Source: Pseudomonadota bacterium (GTDB lineage: Bacteria; Pseudomonadota; Alphaproteobacteria; UBA2136; JASBTF01). Taken from it: DNA of 64,000 nucleotides. The position numbers and the translations under genes were made by a program. The notes under the pieces were generated by a model. The model was not told where the DNA came from, ran no database searches, and worked only from the letters and a program-made list of their open reading frames with translations. The stretch spans positions 361,218 to 425,217 of the forward strand of contig JASBTF010000002.1 in assembly GCA_030148545.1 (NCBI GenBank), read 5' to 3'. Positions 3,368 to 56,551 of the stretch are shown piece after piece (within the stretch, counting starts at the first letter, position 1; each line of letters begins with the position of its first letter).

Positions 3368-4615
3368 ATGAGCCATATCCAAGCGCCTACTGACGGCCAA
3401 AAAATCACCTTTGAAGACGGTAAATTGAATGTACCCGATAACCCAATTGTGTGTTTTATTGAAGGTGACGGCACCGGGCCGGATATTTGGAAAGCAGCTA
3501 AGCGTGTCCTGGATGTAGCAGTGATGAAGGCCTACAGCGGCCGCAAACGAATTGCGTGGATGGAAGTATTCGCCGGCGAAAAAGCGAATGATGTTTACAA
3601 CGAAGAAATTTGGCTGCCGGAAGAAACACTAGAAGCCTTCCGCGAATACCGTATTGGTATTAAAGGCCCACTAACCACACCAGTAGGTGGCGGCTTCCGC
3701 TCACTTAATGTGGCACTACGCCAAGAGCTAGACCTCTACACCTGCCTGCGCCCAGTACAATACTTCGATGGTGTGCCAAGTCCGGTAAAACAGCCAGAAC
3801 TCACCGATATGGTGGTGTTCCGCGAGAATAGCGAAGACATTTACGCCGGTATTGAATTTGCCGCCGGCTCTGAAGAAAATCAAAAACTGCGCGATTTTCT
3901 GCAAAATGAAATGGGCGTACAAAAAATCCGCTTCCCCGAAACTTCAGGTTTGGGCATCAAGCCTGTATCGCGCGAAGGTACCGAGCGTTTGGTACGCGCC
4001 GCGATCGAATACGCTATTGAGCACAAACTACCTTCCGTAACCATTGTTCACAAAGGGAACATTATGAAGTTCACCGAAGGGGCGTTTAAAACATGGGCGT
4101 TCGATTTAGCCCGTCGCGAATTCTCCGAGGAAGTTGTGGTGGCAGAAGATGTAAACTGGAACATCCCCGATGGCAAAATTGTGATTAAGGACGCCATTGC
4201 CGATGCGTTCCTACAGCAAATTTTAACCCGCCCGGCCGAGTACAGCGTTATTGCTACCATGAATTTGAACGGCGACTATGTATCGGATGCTTTGGCAGCC
4301 ACTGTAGGCGGTATTGGTATTGCACCTGGCGCTAACATTAACTACCAAAGTGGCCATGCGGTGTTCGAGGCAACGCACGGTACAGCACCAAAATATGCCG
4401 GTTTGGATAAGGTAAACCCATCATCGGTTATCCTCAGTGGCGAAATGATGCTACGCCACTTGGGCTGGAACGATGCTGCCGACCTAATTGTAAAAGGCCT
4501 TAAAGCTGCCATTACCGAAAAAACCGTAACTTACGACTTTGCCCGCATGATGGACGGCGCTGAAGAAGTAAGCTGCTCCGGCTTTGGTGAGGCTATCGTC
4601 AAGCATATGGGGTAG
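3368..4615 (+). CDS. icd: NADP-dependent isocitrate dehydrogenase, E. coli type
   Basis: Oxidatively decarboxylates isocitrate to 2-oxoglutarate with NADP in the TCA cycle (EC 1.1.1.42). At 415 residues it matches the E. coli enzyme in length and almost continuously in sequence. The substrate loop [15 protein letters not shown] carries Ser112, the equivalent of E. coli Ser113 that the kinase/phosphatase AceK modifies. The cofactor region [20 protein letters not shown] has the Lys-Tyr pair that reads the 2'-phosphate of NADP. Many alphaproteobacteria carry the other, eukaryote-like subfamily instead. A TATAAC box near 3330 could be its -10 element. The gene stands alone. Confidence 0.97.
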
Positions 4616-4760
4616 GGGTAGCATAGCCTTATTTGCCTCCTCAGCTAATAACTGCTATGCTTTTAGCTACCTAATGTCATACCGTTTTTGCATCACCACT
4701 ATGTATGGGGTGTGAGTACGCTATGGCGTTCAGGTTTTTCGTAACTTCATGGAGAACGCT

Positions 4761-4910
4761 ATGAACGTGGAAATTGAAAAAGCTTCTCTTGGCGGCGGTG
4801 GCGGCTGCCTCGAAAAAGAACTCATCGAAGGGTTTGGCGGACATGATCCGCCGGAAGGCAAAGGCAAGCCTGAAAGGCTGACTTCTCTCGGCGGTGGCGG
4901 CATCGGCTAA
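4761..4910 (+). CDS. Small Gly-rich peptide, 49 aa, unknown function
   Basis: ATG at 4761 with GGAG six bases upstream; TAA at 4908. The product begins MNVEIEKASLGGGGGCLEKE, has a charged middle (EGKGKPER) and ends LTSLGGGGIG. The motif SLGGGG therefore occurs twice, once before the only cysteine (C16) and once at the extreme C-terminus. A perfect terminator follows at 4978. There is no signal peptide or membrane segment. The composition resembles some ribosomally made, modified peptide precursors, but no modification enzyme is nearby, so that is only a thought. Coding support comes from the ribosome site, the isolated unit and the internal motif repeat. Confidence 0.55.
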   Translation: MNVEIEKASLGGGGGCLEKELIEGFGGHDPPEGKGKPERLTSLGGGGIG

Positions 4911-4977
4911 CCAGCCAACGCTGAATTAACAGAGCAAGCGCCCGCAGAGGCGTCTTGCATCTGACCAACCGTAACTA

Positions 4978-5007
4978 ACCCCCAGCATAATGCTGGGGGT
5001 ATTTTTT
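4978..5007 (+). terminator. Rho-independent terminator
   Basis: Perfect 10-bp stem ACCCCCAGCA (4978-4987) with TGCTGGGGGT (4991-5000), TAA loop, followed by ATTTTTTG. It ends the small-peptide unit and insulates pheS. Confidence 0.92.
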
Positions 5008-5055
5008 GTATTTAAATATGCTCTTGCGGTCAGCAAAGCTGCCGCGCTAGCAACC

Positions 5056-5090
5056 AAAAAACCAGTAGCCAAAAAGCAGTGGTTTTTCTA
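5056..5090 (+). promoter_or_regulatory. Possible attenuator-like hairpin in the pheS leader
   Basis: AAAAACCA (5056-5063) can pair with TGGTTTTT (5080-5087), and the right arm ends in a T-run just 14 bases before the pheS start. An attenuator upstream of pheST would fit known biology in some bacteria. However, the stem is A-T rich, the loop is 16 bases, and no Phe-rich leader peptide is evident. Confidence 0.25.
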
Positions 5091-5101
5091 TAGTGGCCGC
5101 T

Positions 5102-6154
5102 ATGAACGAACAGCTAAACACGCTCCACACCACTGGCTTGGCACAACTAAGCGGTGCCGCAAACCTAGAAGATTTAGAACAAGTCCGCCTCAATTACTTT
5201 GGCAAAAGCGGCCAAGTAACCCAGTTGTTGAAGTCTCTCGGCCAAATGGATGCCGAGACCCGCAAAACCCAAGGTGCGGAAATTCACAAACTGCGCGAGA
5301 CCTTGCAAACCGCCTTTACCAGCCGTAAGGACGCGTTGGAACAAGCCGAGCTAGATAGCAAACTGGCGCAGGAAAAGGTGGACATCACCCTGCCAGGTAC
5401 CGCCCACACTACGGGTAAAATGCACCCTGTAAGCGCCACCATGATTGAGCTTGCAGAAATTTTAGGCCGCATGGGCTTTGGCCATGCTGTAGGGCCTGAG
5501 GTAGAAACCGATTACTATAACTTCAGCGCGTTGAATATTCCTGCCGAGCACCCCGCCCGTCAAGACCACGATACATTTTATGTAGAAACTAAGGATGAAG
5601 AAGGTCTGCGCAAAGTGTTGCGTACCCAAACATCTAACGTGCAAATTCGCCATTTGCAAAACAACCCAGCACCGGCACGTATTGTGTCGTTTGGTCGTGT
5701 ATATCGTCATGATTACGATGCAACCCACACCCCGCAGTTCCACCAAATGGAAGGCTTGGCGATTGATAAAGACCTCACCTTGGGGCACCTTAAAGGCACC
5801 ATCCAAAAATTCCTTAACGACTTTTTTGGTCGCGAGGTAACACTGCGTTTTCGCATTCACTATTTTCCATTTGTGGAGCCCGGTTTAGAGGTAGATGTGG
5901 CATGGCCAATCGACCAAAAAGCGGATGAAAAAACCCGCTGGCTAGAGGTAATGGGCGCCGGCATGGTGCACCGCAATGTGCTCGCCGCTTGTGGTGTGGA
6001 CCACACCCAATGGCAAGGCTTTGCCTTTGGTGCCGGTATCGAGCGTTTGGCCATGCTCAAACACGGCTTTAATGATATTCGCCAACTGTTTACTGGCCGG
6101 GTGGACTTTTTGCAGTCCTACGGCCAACTTGCCGCCAAATTGACCGCGAAATAG
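5102..6154 (+). CDS. pheS: Phenylalanyl-tRNA synthetase, alpha subunit
   Basis: Catalytic subunit of the (alpha-beta)2 class II enzyme that charges tRNA-Phe. The 350-residue product has the N-terminal coiled coil that binds tRNA (residues about 1-90). The class II core follows: motif 1 near HPVSATMIELAEILGRMGF, the phenylalanine-pocket region QTSNVQIRHL, motif 2 RVYRHDYDATHTPQFHQMEG, and motif 3 FGAGIERLAMLKHG. The ATG at 5102 starts with the usual MNEQL-type N-terminus; an in-frame GTG nine bases upstream is less likely. No good ribosome site is visible. pheT follows after 24 bases. Confidence 0.97.
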   Translation: MNEQLNTLHTTGLAQLSGAANLEDLEQVRLNYFGKSGQVTQLLKSLGQMDAETRKTQGAEIHKLRETLQTAFTSRKDALEQAELDSKLAQEKVDITLPGTAHTTGKMHPVSATMIELAEILGRMGFGHAVGPEVETDYYNFSALNIPAEHPARQDHDTFYVETKDEEGLRKVLRTQTSNVQIRHLQNNPAPARIVSFGRVYRHDYDATHTPQFHQMEGLAIDKDLTLGHLKGTIQKFLNDFFGREVTLRFRIHYFPFVEPGLEVDVAWPIDQKADEKTRWLEVMGAGMVHRNVLAACGVDHTQWQGFAFGAGIERLAMLKHGFNDIRQLFTGRVDFLQSYGQLAAKLTAK

Positions 6155-6178
6155 AGAAAAAGTTAAGAGATTAGTACA

Positions 6179-8548
6179 ATGAAATTTTCCCTAAGTTGGT
6201 TGCACGACCATTTGGATACTACAGCTACTGGGCAACAAATTGCCGATGGCCTCCTACAATTAGGCCACGAGGTTGAGGAGGTGGTGGATGAAGCCGCCGC
6301 CTTTAACAACGTGGTTATTGGCTATGTGAAGGAGCGTGTGCAACACCCAGATGCCGACAAACTTGGCGTTTGTACGGTAGATGTGGGCGAGGGCGCGGAT
6401 CGCCAAATTGTGTGTGGTGCACCAAACGTGCGCGGTGGGCTCACCGTAGCCGTAGCGCTGGAGGGTGCAACCCTACCCAACGGCATGAAAATTGAGCCAC
6501 GCAAAGTACGTGGCGTAACCAGTAACGGCATGATTTGCAGCGCAGCAGAACTCGGCTTGGGCGACGACCACAGTGGCATTATGGAGCTAGAAACCCATGC
6601 CAAACCGGGCGATAGCTTTGCCGAAGCAATGAGCCATAACGATGTGGTGTTCGACCTAGCGCTCACCCCCAACCGTGGCGACTGCTTTAATGTACGTGGC
6701 TTAGCGCGCGATTTGGCTGCCCTTGGCCTTGGTAAACTCAACGAAATCAGCGTGCCTAAGCTTGCTCATTTCGAAACCACAGCCCCGCAAAGTAAAACCG
6801 AAGGCTGTAGTTACTTTGGCCAGCTGGAAGTAAAATTCCTGAAGAATCAACCAAGCCCAGCTTACATTCAACGCCGTTTGGAACAAGCAGGCCTGCGCCC
6901 ACGCAACATTTTGGTGGATATTACTAACTTCATTTTGCTCGACCTTGGCCAACCACTGCACGCTTACGATGGTGCTAAAGTAGCATTGCCGCTCTACTGC
7001 CGCGAAGCAGAAGAGGGCGAAGCCTACGCCGGCCTGAACGACACTAACCTTAAGCTCAATAAGGGCGATTTGGTTATTTGCGACCAAAACGGCATTGTTG
7101 GCTTGGCCGGTATTTTGGGTGGCGCCACCAGCGGCGTTACCGATAGTACCGAAACCGTGATTTTGGAAGGCGCATTATTCAACCGCGCACAAATTGCGCT
7201 TACTGGGCAGGCACATGGCGTGCTTTCCGATGCACGTACCCGTTTTGAGCGCGGTGTAGACCCCGCCACAGTAGACCTTGCCTTGCAGCGCGCCGCTGCG
7301 ATGATGGTAGAGTTTGCCGGTGAACACGTGCAGGTGAGTAGCCTTGCCAGCACCGGCACAACCAACGTGGAAACAGCCACGATAGACTTTAACCCAACCA
7401 TGGTGCAAACCTTCGGCGGGTTAGAAGTAAGCGTAAAGCGCATTACCGAAATTCTGCAAAGCCTTGGTTTTACCGTGGCGCAAAATGGTGAAAACCTCAG
7501 CGTAACCGCACCAACGTGGCGTACGTACATGAGCACTCCAGAGGATTTGGTGGAAGAAGTTGTGCGCGTACACGGGCTGGATGATGTGCAGCCTGTGCTG
7601 CCAGCCTTGCCACTGGCTCCGCAACAACCTGCGCCAGCACGTGTGCAGTTCGACCGTGCTATGCGTACCGCTTTGGTGCAAGCCGGCGCTATGGAAGTGC
7701 AAACCTACAGCTTTATTCCGCAAAAAGTGGCGCAAGCTTGCGCTCCAGGTGTGGCGCTGATTGAAGTTGCCAACCCAATTGACGCCGCCACCATGACCAC
7801 CATGCGTCCCAGTTTGCTACCGGGCTTGCTCATGGCCGCGCAGGAGAACACTGCCCACTCAGATGAAGCAACCTTTATTGCTGAAGTTGGCACCGTATTT
7901 ACCGCACAGGAGGAGCGCCAGCACGCGGCATTTTTGCTCACCCCAAGCAGCCAACGCCATTGGCAACAACAGAGCACAGCGCCAGATGTTTACGCCGCCA
8001 AAGGCCGCCTGTTACAGGCACTAGCCGCACTCGGCGTGGGCGAACACACCTTGCAAATTGAGGCCGATGCCGGCGCACTAGCACACCCCGGCCAGTCCTT
8101 TAAGCTTAAGCAAGGTAAACTGGTTGTAGCATGGGCTGGCAGCGTGCACCCAAGTGTGCTCAAGACGGCAAATTATAAGGGCAAGGCACCTGTGTTTGGC
8201 TGTATTGACCTCACCGCGCTGGAAAAAGTAAAAGCCCGCGCACCAAAATATGCCCCAATGGATTACCCACCAGTAACGCGTGATTTGGCCTTTGTGGTAC
8301 CAGCCGATGTCACCGCAGGCGACATTCAACGTAGCTTAACCAATGCTGCTAAACCCTTGTTACAAAGCATCAATTTGTTTGATATGTACCAAGGTGAACA
8401 AATTGCAGCCGGGCATAAGTCTGTTGCCTTTGCGCTCACGCTGCGCTCTGCGGACCGCACCCTATCGGAGGATGAAATTACCGAGGTGATGGACAACTGC
8501 GTGGCAACCGTACGTAAAAACTACAACGCCGAACTGCGCGAAGCATAG
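6179..8548 (+). CDS. pheT: Phenylalanyl-tRNA synthetase, beta subunit
   Basis: Partner of PheS; provides editing of Tyr-tRNA-Phe and tRNA binding. The 789-residue length is normal. Domains in order: an OB-fold tRNA-binding domain at about 40-150 (VVIGYVKERVQHPDADKLGV...VRGVTSNGMICS), B3/B4 editing domains around 210-390, B5 around 400-480, an inactive class II-like core, and the C-terminal anticodon-binding FDX-ACB domain (PPVTRDLAFVVPADVTAGDI through NAELREA). Cotranscribed with pheS. No truncation seen. Confidence 0.97.
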   Translation: MKFSLSWLHDHLDTTATGQQIADGLLQLGHEVEEVVDEAAAFNNVVIGYVKERVQHPDADKLGVCTVDVGEGADRQIVCGAPNVRGGLTVAVALEGATLPNGMKIEPRKVRGVTSNGMICSAAELGLGDDHSGIMELETHAKPGDSFAEAMSHNDVVFDLALTPNRGDCFNVRGLARDLAALGLGKLNEISVPKLAHFETTAPQSKTEGCSYFGQLEVKFLKNQPSPAYIQRRLEQAGLRPRNILVDITNFILLDLGQPLHAYDGAKVALPLYCREAEEGEAYAGLNDTNLKLNKGDLVICDQNGIVGLAGILGGATSGVTDSTETVILEGALFNRAQIALTGQAHGVLSDARTRFERGVDPATVDLALQRAAAMMVEFAGEHVQVSSLASTGTTNVETATIDFNPTMVQTFGGLEVSVKRITEILQSLGFTVAQNGENLSVTAPTWRTYMSTPEDLVEEVVRVHGLDDVQPVLPALPLAPQQPAPARVQFDRAMRTALVQAGAMEVQTYSFIPQKVAQACAPGVALIEVANPIDAATMTTMRPSLLPGLLMAAQENTAHSDEATFIAEVGTVFTAQEERQHAAFLLTPSSQRHWQQQSTAPDVYAAKGRLLQALAALGVGEHTLQIEADAGALAHPGQSFKLKQGKLVVAWAGSVHPSVLKTANYKGKAPVFGCIDLTALEKVKARAPKYAPMDYPPVTRDLAFVVPADVTAGDIQRSLTNAAKPLLQSINLFDMYQGEQIAAGHKSVAFALTLRSADRTLSEDEITEVMDNCVATVRKNYNAELREA

Positions 8549-8560
8549 GAAACATAGGCC

Positions 8561-9586
8561 TTGCACATCGCCCTAGTTACCGACGCATGGCACCCGCAAA
8601 TCAACGGGGTGGTGATGACCTATGTGGACACTATTGCCGAGCTAGAACGCCAAGGGCACGAGGTAACAGTACTGTCACCAATGGATTTCCCAAGTTTTCC
8701 TCTGCCGTTCTATAAGGAGATCGAGCTGTGCCTTACGCCATGGGCGGTGGCCAAAAAGCTGCATAAAATCCCGTTCGATGCGTTGCACATTGCAACCGAG
8801 GGGCCAATGGGTTGGGCCGCACGCAATTACGCGATGAAGCGTTATATTCCCTTCACCACCGCGGTGCACACGCAATTTGCGCCCATGCTAAAGGCTATGA
8901 TTGGCGTGCCAGAAAGCTGGACCAAACCATTTATGCGTAACTTCCATCTGCCGGCGGTGCGTACCTTTGTACCAACACCAGCCATGGCCGAGCAATTACG
9001 TGCCGATGGTTACGATGACTTAGTCATTTGGGGCCGTGGTATTGATGGTCAGCGTTTTCAACCAACCGATGCAGCGCCAGAAATGGCCGATTTAGCAAAG
9101 CCAATTATGTTAAATATTGGCCGTGTGAGTGCGGAGAAAAACCTTAAAGCATTTTTGGATATGCCAGCCAAAGGCAGCAAAGTTATTGTGGGTGATGGCC
9201 CGCAGTTTAATGCGCTTAAAAAGCAGTACCCAAATGTGGTGTGGTTGGGTAAACGCGCGCATGATGATTTGGCACCCTATTACAGCGCTGCGGATGTTTT
9301 TGTATTCCCCAGTAAGGCGGATACTTTTGGCCGCGTGATGTTGGAATCGATGGCCTGCGGCACACCAGTGGCGGCGTATCCTGTTACTGGCCCTATCGAT
9401 GTGGTCACCAGTACAAAAGCTGGCAGCCTGCACGACGATTTAGCAGTGGCCACAGTGCAGGCACTAACCTGCAAACGTGACGATTGTGTGGCTTTTGCAC
9501 AGCAGCATACCTTGCAAGCCGTGACCAAAACCTTTGTACAAAGCCTTGCCCCACTTGACGCTACGGCAACGCTGCGCGCACAATAG
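8561..9586 (+). CDS. Family 4-type glycosyltransferase (GT-B fold)
   Basis: Retaining GT-B glycosyltransferase of 341 residues. The N-terminal acceptor domain begins HIALVTDAWHPQINGVV, the usual opening of MgtA/PimB-like mannosyltransferases. The donor-site region DTFGRVMLESMACGTPVAA has the E-x7-E motif of the family, and SAEKNLKAFL matches the family's NR(x)EKN segment. The start is a TTG at 8561, accepted because the conserved N-terminus begins there and AGGA lies about 11 bases upstream. It follows pheT by 12 bases and may be cotranscribed. Acceptor and sugar are unknown; glycolipid synthesis is the common role. Confidence 0.82.
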   Translation: MHIALVTDAWHPQINGVVMTYVDTIAELERQGHEVTVLSPMDFPSFPLPFYKEIELCLTPWAVAKKLHKIPFDALHIATEGPMGWAARNYAMKRYIPFTTAVHTQFAPMLKAMIGVPESWTKPFMRNFHLPAVRTFVPTPAMAEQLRADGYDDLVIWGRGIDGQRFQPTDAAPEMADLAKPIMLNIGRVSAEKNLKAFLDMPAKGSKVIVGDGPQFNALKKQYPNVVWLGKRAHDDLAPYYSAADVFVFPSKADTFGRVMLESMACGTPVAAYPVTGPIDVVTSTKAGSLHDDLAVATVQALTCKRDDCVAFAQQHTLQAVTKTFVQSLAPLDATATLRAQ

Positions 9587-9626
9587 AGCATTGAATTTTA
9601 AATAAATACAAACCGAGGGAAGAAAA

Positions 9627-10295
9627 ATGAGCTTCAAAAAACTATGTAACAACCCCCCATTTGCAACGCTAAAAATTGGTAGCTTTGCACTGCTACTCAC
9701 CATTGCTGCCTTTGTGCTGCAATATGGCTTTGGCGCTGAGCCATGCACCATGTGCTGGTGGCAGCGCTTTGTGCACTGGGCCATGGTTGCTGTGGCGTTT
9801 GGTGCGGCTTTTGTGGGGCTAAAATCTCTTTGCACATTGCGCCTGCTTGCGGTGTTGGGTGTTATTGGCCTTGGTTTGGCCTCATGGCAGTCTGCTGGGC
9901 AGCTTGGTGTTGTAGAACTTCCAGCCGTGTGTGGCGGTAGCGATGTTATTTTGGCCGATGCGGGTGACCTACTTGCTCAACTGGAGAAGAAAGACCTTGG
10001 CATGGCGCCAGCGTGCGATGAGATGGGTATGACCATTTTGGGCCTATCGCTCGCTATGTGGAATGTACTGGCCATGCTCGCCGTATTGGTTATTGCTGCC
10101 ATTGGTGGTGTGTGCTGCGGTAAAAACTGCCCAGTTGGCGGTAAAACCGAGCCAAAGGTAGAACCTAAGGCCGAGCCAGCACCAGCAGCTCCAGCTAAAA
10201 AGGCACCGGCGAAGAAAGCCGCGCCAGCCAAAAAGCCAGCTGCCAAAAAAGCTGCTCCTAAAAAAACAGCAGCGAAGAAAAAACAGGCTAAGTAA
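9627..10295 (+). CDS. dsbB: DsbB-like disulfide oxidoreductase with a Lys/Ala/Pro-rich C-terminal tail
   Basis: Four-helix inner-membrane protein that reoxidises DsbA and passes electrons to quinone. The first redox pair is EPCTMC (C40, C43) in the first periplasmic loop. The second is probably C102 (PAVCGG) and C130 (PACDE) in the second loop. Helices lie near 14-34, 48-66, 70-90 and 138-162. After residue 172 the chain becomes a 50-residue tail of PAKKA-like repeats, resembling histone H1 or basic tails of nucleic-acid-binding proteins; this is not part of the DsbB family. The ATG at 9627 follows GAGGGAAGAAAA. No dsbA is adjacent. Confidence 0.8.
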   Translation: MSFKKLCNNPPFATLKIGSFALLLTIAAFVLQYGFGAEPCTMCWWQRFVHWAMVAVAFGAAFVGLKSLCTLRLLAVLGVIGLGLASWQSAGQLGVVELPAVCGGSDVILADAGDLLAQLEKKDLGMAPACDEMGMTILGLSLAMWNVLAMLAVLVIAAIGGVCCGKNCPVGGKTEPKVEPKAEPAPAAPAKKAPAKKAAPAKKPAAKKAAPKKTAAKKKQAK

Positions 10296-10306
10296 TCGCT
10301 AAAACA

Positions 10307-10339
10307 AAAAAAAGCCCCTTATGAAGAGGGGCTTTTTTT
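10307..10339. terminator. Bidirectional rho-independent terminator between dsbB and pip
   Basis: AAAAAAAGCCCCT (10307-10319) pairs perfectly with AGGGGCTTTTTTT (10327-10339) around a TATGAAG loop. T-runs occur on both strands, and the flanking genes converge, so it can serve both. Confidence 0.92.
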
Positions 10340-10383
10340 ATATCATGCTGGTGGGTCAGCATAAATCGGCATTATTCAGCATG

Positions 10384-11400
10384 CTATGCTGCTTTATGCT
10401 GAATATCAGCATCATATGCTTGCTCATTAATGAGCTGAATCAGCGCGCTCTTATACATAGGGTTGCCAGAACGGTGACCAGCGTTAGAAACTACAGTCAG
10501 CTTAGACTGTGGCACAGCGTCATGCAATGCGTAAGCGTTTTTAACAGGGCATAAAATATCATATTGACCATGAATAATAAAAACTGGGATGTTTTTTAGC
10601 ATTTTTGCAGCTTTTTCCAACAGTGGGTTTTGCGGGTCAATAAAGTAATTATGCTGGTGGTAATGCGTGTAAACTAGCATGCTTTGGGCAAGCTCAGCGC
10701 TATATTCCAAGGTGTTAATAAAATCCCAATCAGGCACAATATCTAGCACCGTTAGCTCCCAACGGCTTAGCTCTAAAGTTGCCTTTTGCGCAACCCCTTC
10801 ATCGCTATGGCGTACCATTTGGCAATACCCCGCCATTGGGTCTGAGCGTAGTGTTCGTGGCAAAAATTGCACCATGCGCTGATATTCCCGTGGGTAAAGT
10901 TGCGCCGGAAAACCATGCTCGCTATATAGGTTCTGGATCTCTGTTTGCGTGCCAAAAAACGTGCCGGCACTCACCACGCCCAGCACCCGCTCCGGAAACT
11001 GCGCCGCATACGCCAAAGCTAAGGTAGCGCCCCAACTGCTGCCCATTACCCACCATTTTTCAAAGCCTAAATGTTGGCGCAAAGATTCCATATCGTTGAT
11101 CAAATCTTGCAACGTATTATGCTTGGTTTCGGCAGCTGGTTTGCTACGGCCACAGCCACGTTGATCGTGCAAAACCATATTCCATTTTTGTGGGTCAAAA
11201 ATTTGGCGTTTACTGTCGCTATTACCGCTGCCAGGGCCGCCGTGGAGCCAAATTACTGGCAGCCCATTTGGATTACCAACTTGTTCCCAGTAAATTTCAT
11301 GTTCATTATCAACAGCATAATAGCCAGTTTGGTAGGGCTCAATTTCAGGGAAGGCGCTGTGAAAGTTTTCAGGCTCAGCAGGGGTATAAGTAATGCTCAT
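10384..11400 (-). CDS. pip: Proline iminopeptidase (alpha/beta hydrolase)
   Basis: Removes N-terminal proline from peptides (EC 3.4.11.5, S33 family). The oxyanion motif is WLHGGPGSG, the nucleophile elbow GSSWGATLAL, the acid probably in GQYDILCP, and the histidine in SNAGHRSG. YYAVDNEHEIYWEQVGNP is the typical N-terminal strand of the family. I start at the ATG at 11400 (MSITYTPAEP); the frame extends 12 codons further to 11436, but those residues are not family-like. Soluble, no signal peptide. It converges on dsbB across a shared terminator. Confidence 0.93.
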   Translation of the reverse strand: MSITYTPAEPENFHSAFPEIEPYQTGYYAVDNEHEIYWEQVGNPNGLPVIWLHGGPGSGNSDSKRQIFDPQKWNMVLHDQRGCGRSKPAAETKHNTLQDLINDMESLRQHLGFEKWWVMGSSWGATLALAYAAQFPERVLGVVSAGTFFGTQTEIQNLYSEHGFPAQLYPREYQRMVQFLPRTLRSDPMAGYCQMVRHSDEGVAQKATLELSRWELTVLDIVPDWDFINTLEYSAELAQSMLVYTHYHQHNYFIDPQNPLLEKAAKMLKNIPVFIIHGQYDILCPVKNAYALHDAVPQSKLTVVSNAGHRSGNPMYKSALIQLINEQAYDADIQHKAA

Positions 11401-53799: not shown

Positions 53800-55902
53800 A
53801 TGATGAAAATATTTAATTGTTCGGCAAGAGCGATGTTATTAGCGCTATGTGCGCTTTTTGGCGTTTTTAATAATGTGCATGCTGGTGATGGTGCAGCACC
53901 TACAAATGCTGGCCAGTCAGGGCAATATGTAGCGCAAGATGGCAGCGTGGTTGGCTTTAAATCTACGGGCCCAGTTGCTGCAGAGCTAAATGTTTATGGT
54001 GAATGTAGTGTTGTTGTAAATGGTACGGGGCAACAGCTTTTTGTGGCCCTTAATTCTCAAGCAGAGTGGAGTGGACCTGAAGGCTTTACACAAAAAGGCG
54101 TGGAATATGACCCAGAGCTGAATGTACTCCCCTGTACCGACTTTATTTATGGAGATTGGGGCCCGTGGACACCGTGGGCTGGCAGCGGTACCGAAACACG
54201 TAGCCGTAACCGCACATGTGAACATAAAGATGATCCAACAATAACCGACGATACTTGCGGCGCTTGTGGTGGCGAATGTACCCAAACCGCCCGTCGTGGT
54301 CCTTGGGGTCCTTTTGGGGCGTGTAGCGCTAGCTGTGGCGAAGGAACGCAAACGCGAGAACGCCTATGCGAAGTTGCCACTAACAGCACTTTTACCACCA
54401 TGAGCGGCAGCCAGTGCGATACGTATTGTGGTGGCTGTACCGATACACAGGCTTGTACAGGCTTAAGCGCATGTGTGGGATGTGAGGTAGCCGCATTAGA
54501 TGCAGACGGTAACCCTGTGACAGTAAACGTGGCAGATGGCGATAGTATCACGCTTTATTCCGACCCAGCTCCAGACTTTGGCACAACATGTACGCCTTAT
54601 ACCTCTGGCTGTGAAGATGGTGAGCTGGTACCACATTTAAGCAGTAGCTTATACACCAGCTGTACGCCAGCACTGCCGCGTGATTGTACGTTGGGTAGCA
54701 CAACAATACGACATGGCGAAAGCATTACAGCTTACAGTGTAGGTCAGGTAATAGAGCCCGATAGCTGTACTAATTACATGCAAACACGCACCTGTTTTGA
54801 TGGCACCCTAAGCGGTAGCGAAAGTTACAGATATGATACATGTGTGGTGACCCCACCAGGCGGTAGTTGTAGCTTTAATGGTGTTGAGCTTACCGAAGGT
54901 GAATCTGTAACAGCGTTTGAAAACAGCTCTGTACCATATGGTTCTACTTGTGTGAGCGAGTCACGCACATGTTTGGCTGGCAACTTAACTGGTAGTTACG
55001 CGCACTCAAGCTGTACTGTGCAGCCACCGGCTAATTGTACGTTTGATGGACAAGTTGTTTTACACGGTAATTCTGTAACGGCGTATCAAAGCTCTAATGG
55101 CACTTGTGTTTCTGAGCAACGTACGTGCGACAACGGCACCTTAAGCGGTAGTTATCAGTATAGTACCTGTGGTGGTGGCGGTGACCCCGTAAGTTGCATG
55201 TTTAACGGTGTAGAAGTAGCGCATGGCGATAGTGTAACAGCGTGGGAAGCACCTGCAGCGTCATCTTCGGCTGATTGTAATAGCGAACAACGTACATGTA
55301 ACGATGGTACGTTAAGCGGCAGCTTTGAATATACCGCTTGTTTAAATGGCTGTACTCTAGATGGTGAGTTCATACCACACGGTGAGTCTATTACGGCTTA
55401 CAGCACACAATCGATTGACTATGAAGAAACCTGTGCCAGCGAAACACGTAGCTGTAATGATGGCGTGTTAAGCGGCAGTAGTTCATACCAGTATTCCAGT
55501 TGTAGTGGCCCAAGTTGTAGCATTACCAAATCTGGTAACGTAAACTGGACAGCAACCAATACACGCGGCACCACACGTGGCTGTGAAGCACACTGTGCGG
55601 GGCAAGGGTTATACTCTGTGCGTACCGATAAAGCACGTTTGTGTGAATCTGGTGAAACAGGTAACTACCCTGATAAATCTACCAGCTTGTACTGGACTGG
55701 TAACTCACTGCGCTGTTACTCCGCAGGCCAGCTGATGGATAACGACCGTAGCGATAAAACGCAGTACTGCTACTGTGCACCACACCCAAGTTGTGAAGGT
55801 ACAGAATATGTACCACCAAGCACGGGTGGTGGCAGCTCAGGTGGCGGTGGCGGACAGTTTGCCGATCCAGATGAACCTGGCATGTTTTTAAATGAAAAAT
55901 AA
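53800..55902 (+). CDS. Secreted Cys-rich protein with TSP1-like modules and a four-Cys repeat
   Basis: A 700-residue exported protein: signal peptide to about residue 28 (NNVHA), a short beta region, then two thrombospondin type-1-like modules at about 118-160 (YGDWGPWTPWAGSGTETRSR) and 166-213 (GPWGPFGACSASCGEGTQTR). From 228 to 568 a four-cysteine module recurs: five clear copies and one degenerate, pattern C-F-x-G...HG-x-SVTAY...C-x-S-E-x-RTC-x-x-GTLSGSY-x-Y-x-x-C. A Cys-rich region (573-666) and a Gly/Ser tail end the chain. GAGGGGAA precedes ATG 53800. TSP1 modules often bind glycans or matrix. Function unknown. Confidence 0.85.
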   Translation: MMKIFNCSARAMLLALCALFGVFNNVHAGDGAAPTNAGQSGQYVAQDGSVVGFKSTGPVAAELNVYGECSVVVNGTGQQLFVALNSQAEWSGPEGFTQKGVEYDPELNVLPCTDFIYGDWGPWTPWAGSGTETRSRNRTCEHKDDPTITDDTCGACGGECTQTARRGPWGPFGACSASCGEGTQTRERLCEVATNSTFTTMSGSQCDTYCGGCTDTQACTGLSACVGCEVAALDADGNPVTVNVADGDSITLYSDPAPDFGTTCTPYTSGCEDGELVPHLSSSLYTSCTPALPRDCTLGSTTIRHGESITAYSVGQVIEPDSCTNYMQTRTCFDGTLSGSESYRYDTCVVTPPGGSCSFNGVELTEGESVTAFENSSVPYGSTCVSESRTCLAGNLTGSYAHSSCTVQPPANCTFDGQVVLHGNSVTAYQSSNGTCVSEQRTCDNGTLSGSYQYSTCGGGGDPVSCMFNGVEVAHGDSVTAWEAPAASSSADCNSEQRTCNDGTLSGSFEYTACLNGCTLDGEFIPHGESITAYSTQSIDYEETCASETRSCNDGVLSGSSSYQYSSCSGPSCSITKSGNVNWTATNTRGTTRGCEAHCAGQGLYSVRTDKARLCESGETGNYPDKSTSLYWTGNSLRCYSAGQLMDNDRSDKTQYCYCAPHPSCEGTEYVPPSTGGGSSGGGGGQFADPDEPGMFLNEK
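54685..55503 (+). repeat. Tandem repeats encoding the four-cysteine module
   Basis: Residues 296-568. Copies begin near residues 296, 357, 413, 466 and 518, so the period is about 50-60 residues; residues 228-288 are a degenerate extra copy. Each has four cysteines, the middle two six or seven residues apart, and the peptide (T/N)G(T/V)LSGS is the best-kept core. The cores HGESITAY and HGDSVTAW are also reused. Confidence 0.85.
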
Positions 55903-55907
55903 AATTA

Positions 55908-55936
55908 AAAGGCCCCCGTTTAAAACGGGGGCCTTT
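55908..55936 (+). terminator. Rho-independent terminator
   Basis: AAAGGCCCCCG pairs with CGGGGGCCTTT around TTTAAAA, a perfect 11-bp stem extendable by A-T pairs. It starts a few bases after the TSP1-like gene. Confidence 0.92.
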
Positions 55937-55941
55937 ATGTC

Positions 55942-56091
55942 GTGTAGCGCTTTACCGACAGCACGAGCGATTACCATATGTGACTAGCTTAATGATGTTG
56001 CTGTCGTGGTCCCTAGGTTCCGGAGGGACTAGGTCAACGCGGGTCCAGGATGCCCCTGGTGCCGTGCTGCGGCTTTGCCGACAGCACGAGC
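55942..56091. ncRNA. Candidate structured RNA with two copies of a bulged hairpin
   Basis: A 19-mer CTTTRCCGACAGCACGAGC occurs at 55950-55968 and 56073-56091 (one mismatch, 123 bases apart). Four hairpins follow one another: CGACAGCA/TGCTGTCG (55956-56006), GTCCCT/AGGGAC (56009-56029), CCAGG/CCTGG (56045-56059), and GTGCTG-CGGC-TTT-GCCG-A-CAGCAC (56064-56087). No credible ORF. The last resembles the hairpin at 37611. Confidence 0.4.
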
Positions 56092-56095
56092 AGTC

Positions 56096-56551
56096 CTATA
56101 AGTGGTTACGTAGCATCCACAGCGTTTTTTCATGTGCTTGCAAACGCGCAATCATCATATCTGCAGTGCCTTCATCGCCATTTTCAGCGGCTACTTCCTG
56201 TGCGTTTTTAATCAGTGCATCTATTTTTTCATGCCCGTTTACAAGCGCTTTCAGGGCATCACTGCCTTTAATTTCTGCTGCTGTAAGCTCTTCAATTTGG
56301 CTTAGCGCAGCATAACCGCTTAGGCTACCGGGTGCAGCAGCACCAAGAGCACGAATACGCTCAGCAATCTCATCAATAGCTTCAGCTAGTTCCGCATATT
56401 GTTCACCAAACATTTGATGCAGCGGATGAAAATGCGGGCCAACCACATTCCAGTGTGCATTTTGAGTGTTTAAGTAAAGTGCGTAGGTGTTAGCCAGTAC
56501 AATGTTGAGCTGGTCAACAACGGCGTTTTTATTTTCAATGTAATGTGTCAT
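56096..56551 (-). CDS. dps: Dps-family ferritin-like DNA-protection protein
   Basis: A 151-residue four-helix protein forming a 12-mer that oxidises and stores iron and shields DNA. The inter-subunit ferroxidase ligands are in NAHWNVVGPHFHPLHQMF and EAIDEIAERIRALG (His, His, Asp, Glu). There is no long basic N-terminal tail, so DNA binding by that route is unlikely. It lies minus-strand between two plus-strand genes of the flagellar cluster. Confidence 0.95.
   Translation of the reverse strand: MTHYIENKNAVVDQLNIVLANTYALYLNTQNAHWNVVGPHFHPLHQMFGEQYAELAEAIDEIAERIRALGAAAPGSLSGYAALSQIEELTAAEIKGSDALKALVNGHEKIDALIKNAQEVAAENGDEGTADMMIARLQAHEKTLWMLRNHL

Follow-up and report, generated by a model that had tools for sequence, protein, structure and literature searches.

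The gene described here lies in a window of 64,000 nucleotides, meaning the whole stretch of DNA that was analysed, from a swimming bacterium with a tiny genome (1.14 Mb, 86% complete). The open reading frame at 53800-55902 on the forward strand is real; it is open for 700 codons, and its product, P0001, contains 48 cysteines. P0001 is a secreted, cysteine-rich, multi-domain protein of 700 residues with a paralogue in its own genome (L009:7071-9359, reverse strand), which shares 46% identity over aa 13-386. Its N-terminus (aa 1-28; 53800-53883, forward strand as for all parts of the protein) reads as signal-peptide-like, ending in FNNVHA before GDG, in agreement with the preliminary description of this DNA, although this was judged by reading the sequence only. 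An N-terminal domain, two thrombospondin type 1 (TSP1)-related stretches and an array of four-cysteine repeats follow, and then a C-terminal domain with eight cysteines (aa 573-665; 55516-55794) and a tail read as Gly/Ser-rich (55813-55899). The eight-cysteine domain is kept in the paralogue (46% identity over aa 590-685) and had no match in Pfam or among plasmids. Searches with the whole protein found no full-length homologue in 60 relatives and no match in the genome contig collection, and neither P0001 nor its paralogue matched any of the phage families. The G + C content of the gene is 0.489, against a window mean of 0.487, and at third codon positions it is 0.378, lower than in the flagellar neighbours (0.444 and 0.458). 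Right after the stop codon there is a hairpin of 13-14 perfect pairs (55908-55936), a probable terminator, which the pattern scan scored as such on the minus strand only.

The gene had been placed between fliX and flhB, and Pfam analysis confirmed both neighbours (FliX, 4.6e-14; FlhB, 4e-125), as well as FliR and a Dps-type ferritin, whose gene lies antisense in the same gap. The P0001 gene follows fliX by 50 nt in the same direction, as would suit a flagellar component or an adhesin carried on the flagellum. However, in the six relatives of the same order with fliX in view, fliR, fliX and flhB are contiguous with nothing between them, so the P0001 gene and the antisense dps look inserted. The fliR-flhB adjacency previously ascribed to most relatives was therefore nearly right: the P0001 gene is missing there, but the order is fliR-fliX-flhB. 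Moreover, the paralogue gene lies outside any flagellar cluster and adjoins an S74 gene instead, and the Sec-type start of P0001 is unlike what flagellar type III export needs. A flagellar function was rejected on the synteny of these six relatives and is very improbable, and the location of the gene carries no functional weight.

Further downstream, on the forward strand at 55998-56105, lies an intergenic element of about 95 nt that forms three hairpins (MFE -46.5). It is dispersed, and 25 other matches to it are present across the 1.14-Mb genome. Paired stem changes between the copies were recognised by eye. No Rfam family was reached at cut-off, and the element is REP/MITE-like.

TSP1-related modules

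TSP1 is the module known from thrombospondin and other adhesive proteins of animals. Two modules of the form CSxSCGxGxQxRxR had been reported in P0001, of which only the second has the CSxSCGxG motif (C175-C179). This module, aa 167-219 (54298-54456; CSASCGEGTQTRERLC), scored narrowly above the Pfam cut-off for TSP_1 (PF00090; 22.0 versus 21.6 bits), and in a PDB search it matched thrombospondin-1 chains at E-values of 1.5e-7 to 1.7e-6. Six shuffles of the TSP1 region gave no TSP1 match, which indicates that the second module is no composition artefact. The first W-rich stretch, aa 118-162 (54151-54285), has the WxxW start (WGPWTPW; W120, W123) and TRSRNRTC, but the two leading cysteines are missing; it aligned weakly to thrombospondin TSR and had no Pfam match of its own. 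Since it does not have CSxSCGxG, it can at most be called a degenerate module, and TSP1 membership holds for one of the two modules. An AF2 model of the N-domain/TSP1 region, made from 4 sequences only as homologues are few, had a pLDDT of 39.8, too low to speak for or against a three-stranded CWR-layered fold.

P0001 resembles the known TSP1 proteins (thrombospondin-1, TRAP and CCN) in one CSxSCGxG module, the W-rich start and the basic ladder residues. It differs from them in being bacterial and in having one good copy beside a second without the first two cysteines, and the remainder of the protein is unrelated to them by sequence. Among the 289 genomes sampled from the class, TSP_1 was present only in the genome studied here and in one relative of the same order, G002.

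Two further TSP1 proteins were observed. In G002 an 817-aa protein (L067:5981-8434, reverse strand) has at least six TSP1 modules, and its gene adjoins those of two short secreted proteins that begin with an N-terminus of the same type. A plasmid of Azospirillum oryzae encodes a protein with three TSP1 modules (TSP1_ADAMTS; L072:4059-5663, forward strand), whose gene is flanked by traA and by a large hypothetical gene, after which comes a DsbC-family gene.

The four-cysteine repeat

Five clear copies of the repeat, each of 45-53 residues, were found at aa 296-348 (54685-54843), 357-405 (54868-55014), 413-457 (55036-55170), 466-514 (55195-55341) and 518-568 (55351-55503). They are preceded by a degenerate copy at about aa 228-288 (54481-54663), recognised with the HMM of the repeat, so that the earlier count of about six copies was correct. 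The nine copies of P0001 and its paralogue in alignment A1 share 12 invariant columns, including all four cysteines.

The repeat had been called unfamiliar, and indeed its sequence matched no family in Pfam, NCBIfam or PDB, and its motif was not found printed in any bacterial context in the literature searched. It is, however, not private. An HMM search with the repeat alone, as proposed in the preliminary description, found 176 copies in 40 ORFs from many bacterial groups, in arrays of 1 to 15 copies; the loci comprise 23 in the genome collection and two plasmids. For the collection search a four-row set (A2), tighter than A1, was used, in which two rows were slightly edited for search only. 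The hosts are Bdellovibrio and its relatives (up to 15 copies), Kaiserbacteria, Falkowbacteria, Omnitrophota, Myxococcota, Bacteroidales, Methylococcaceae, Hyphomonas, Nitratireductor and UBA6503, with both alpha- and gammaproteobacteria represented; in UBA6503 (L033) they are part of fusions with collagen-like/fibre stalks. Viral contigs and phage records yielded no repeat. Only 2 of the 289 class genomes sampled carry it, a patchy distribution like that of exchanged surface modules. Repeat pairs also gave weak Pfam matches to cystine-knot, Salp15, hydrophobin and other families; these were rejected, as they are scattered across unrelated cysteine-rich families, and a cyanovirin-like sequence match (E 6.3) was rejected as chance.

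In Bdellovibrionota, proteins at L018, L022 and L024 consist nearly entirely of the repeat, with 7-15 copies, and some have lipoprotein-like starts. They are probably surface-exposed.

An AF2 model of repeats 2 and 3, made from 38 sequences, reached a pLDDT of 96.6. A Foldseek search of this model against PDB gave the vWC domain of CCN3 (5nb8) as the highest-probability match (prob 0.90, 1.8 Å over 43 columns, E 1.8), followed by the collagen-IIA vWC and FN1 finger domains, with entries including 5nir and 1tpm (FN1). No match was significant, all E-values being above 0.8, and a fold search against the viral library found none. The predicted fold is like subdomain 1 of von Willebrand factor type C (vWC) and fibronectin type I (FN1), at 1.8-2.5 Å over about 40 residues, but without a significant sequence match or Foldseek E-value; the repeat also lacks the CxxCxC signature of vWC and has four cysteines only. 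A Pfam scan of 38 repeat pairs gave no VWC or FN1 family among the matches listed. On the basis of this single fold search, in which E exceeded 1, we predict a vWC-SD1/FN1-like fold with moderate confidence. Mapping by sequence to a well-known family, which would have spoken against the earlier description, was not observed in Pfam, NCBIfam or PDB. The repeat appears to be a widespread surface domain of bacteria missing from both family databases, and its high-confidence model opens the way to ligand testing.

The repeats, as beads, might form a passive, protease-resistant spacer or matrix, as in a sheath, a biofilm or a coat on the surface; the TSP1 and cysteine-rich domains would then serve only to stabilise it, with no specific binding. 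The range of 1 to 15 copies in very different proteins is spacer-like, P0001 is rich in S/G/T, and a purely structural stalk would present the same sequence picture as an adhesin. On the other hand, each bead is a defined small domain with its invariant columns and a confident model, and the Bdellovibrio-type proteins, being nearly all beads, have no other obvious functional part. We regard the spacer as rather unlikely.

The N-terminal domain and its neighbours

The N-terminal domain of P0001 (about aa 53-112; 53956-54135) has the pattern C-x3-V-x-N...LFV...S-x2-EW...F...C and no Pfam match. It recurs in a few alphaproteobacteria: besides the paralogue (L009), in Hyphomonas BRH_c22 (L025), in a protein with a TSP1 motif, repeats and the overall architecture of P0001; in the UBA6503 genome G290 (L070), with repeats and no TSP1; in G131 (L078/L105), with a Hint domain; and in G116 (L077). 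The domain is rare, being found in 4 of the 289 class genomes and in 3 of the 398 genomes of the phylum sample.

An S74 or tail-fibre-like neighbour was present at four of the six N-domain loci outside the window (L009, L070, L105 and L025). Directly upstream of the paralogue, on the same strand, is the gene of a 237-aa S74 (endosialidase chaperone) protein, and the same pair order is found in G290, where the S74 gene is 21 nt away, and in G131 (L105); Pfam S74 E-values were 1.8e-16 at L009 and 2.1e-15 at L070. In Hyphomonas the divergent neighbour encodes a fibre-stalk protein with a GIGT motif, and its N-terminus, NGxxCYTDGxDxIC, is common to the 2,398-aa S74 fibre of the genome studied here. 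The loci without an S74 neighbour are that of G116, which comes after a pilin-like gene, and a weak second copy in G131 (L106). Of 18 genomes of the order, 12 carry S74. With zero to three such genes in each genome, it is very unlikely that the adjacency at four loci arose by chance. No S74 gene was found near the window copy of the P0001 gene, the S74 matches of its own genome lying on another contig, and P0001 itself had no Pfam S74 match. Secreted proteins of the genome studied here (G000), of G002 and of G290 have in common a coiled-coil and two-cysteine N-terminal cap, which precedes S74, TSP1, Hint or repeat tips; the similarity of the caps is low and was judged by eye.

The S74 fibres of Bdellovibrio are known prey-contact adhesins, and the mosaic adhesive trimer (MAT) fibres of Bdellovibrio bacteriovorus, both S74 and non-S74, act on prey through exchanged adhesive tips (PMC10769870). 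S74 fibre proteins are encoded in the same genomes and loci as P0001-type proteins, those read here keep the SDxxxK motif, and the logic of shared N-termini with swapped C-terminal domains is alike. P0001, however, has neither the trimeric beta-helix shaft with GIGT-type repeats nor S74, and would be a companion of MAT fibres rather than one of them.

Proposed role of P0001

Close relatives of P0001 are encoded beside phage-tail-fibre-like genes, which suggests a gripping role, and P0001 probably helps the cell to grip other cells or surfaces. It has about an even chance of being an exported, Dsb-dependent modular adhesin or an accessory of a tail-fibre-like surface system. The adhesin or contact factor proposed earlier is supported indirectly, by the S74 and tail-fibre-like neighbours of the family proteins and the Bdellovibrio precedent (PMC10769870). 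Also in favour are the TSP1 match, the confident repeat model, whose highest-probability PDB match is to a binding module of extracellular proteins, the UBA6503 fusions with fibre stalks and the 2,398-aa S74 fibre of the same genome. Against this reading stand the missing S74 neighbour of the window copy, the high E-values of the fold search and the lack of a full-length homologue in the 60 relatives. We infer the surface location, docking, binding, partner cells and export route of P0001 as follows. The protein would be exported by Sec and folded oxidatively by the Dsb system, and a DsbB gene is present in the window at 9627-10295. Outer passage may be through one of the two secretins of the genome, one of which has a T2SSE ATPase and a T2SSF protein close by. 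The mature protein would be a rod made of the N-domain, two TSP1 modules of which one is degraded, five disulfide-locked beads and the cysteine-rich C-terminal domain. The N-domain most likely docks it to, or cooperates with, an S74 MAT-like tail-fibre appendage, while the TSP1 modules, beads and C-terminal part would offer binding surfaces to another cell or a matrix.

P0001 could also be the adhesin of a conjugation- or pilus-type machine delivered by mobile DNA. The gene of the Azospirillum TSP1 protein belongs to an F-type transfer locus, where it lies between traA and the dsbC-type gene, an Allochromatium repeat protein is plasmid-borne near a TraG-like gene, the Hyphomonas contig has transposase-like and plasmid-type reading frames, and the pilin-like gene ahead of the G116 N-domain gene points the same way. 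Yet the surroundings of the two copies in the genome studied here showed no transfer locus, and the likeness of P0001 to the Azospirillum protein is confined to TSP1 (34.9%, E 0.01). We consider this origin improbable.

The gripping role could be part of a wider scheme, which is possible but doubtful: the repeat, as an uncatalogued bacterial family with a vWC/FN1-like fold, would in small-genomed alphaproteobacteria form, together with the new N-domain, an exchangeable accessory or tip of contact systems of the S74 tail-fibre-like kind, and would be what TSP1-vWC matrix proteins are in animals. The findings tie TSP1 and the repeat in alphaproteobacteria to S74 fibre systems, with which predatory Bdellovibrio recognises its prey, a link that suggests how small uncultured bacteria may keep hold of partners. 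If the vWC/FN1 likeness is true, there is a bacterial parallel to the pairing of TSP1 with vWC in animal matrix proteins.

Other proteins of these genomes were also observed. Two giant tail-fibre-like proteins, of at least 1,162 and of 2,398 aa, are encoded in tandem in the P0001-bearing genome (L104:2-3490 and 3501-10697, forward strand), with many GNVGIGT repeats; the second ends in S74, and the pair represents MAT-like fibres in a small alphaproteobacterium. Hint (intein-like) C-terminal domains were found at L078:518-1453 and L069:7989-9107 (both forward strand) in secreted proteins with the N-domain or a coiled-coil cap, and these domains are possible self-processing tips.
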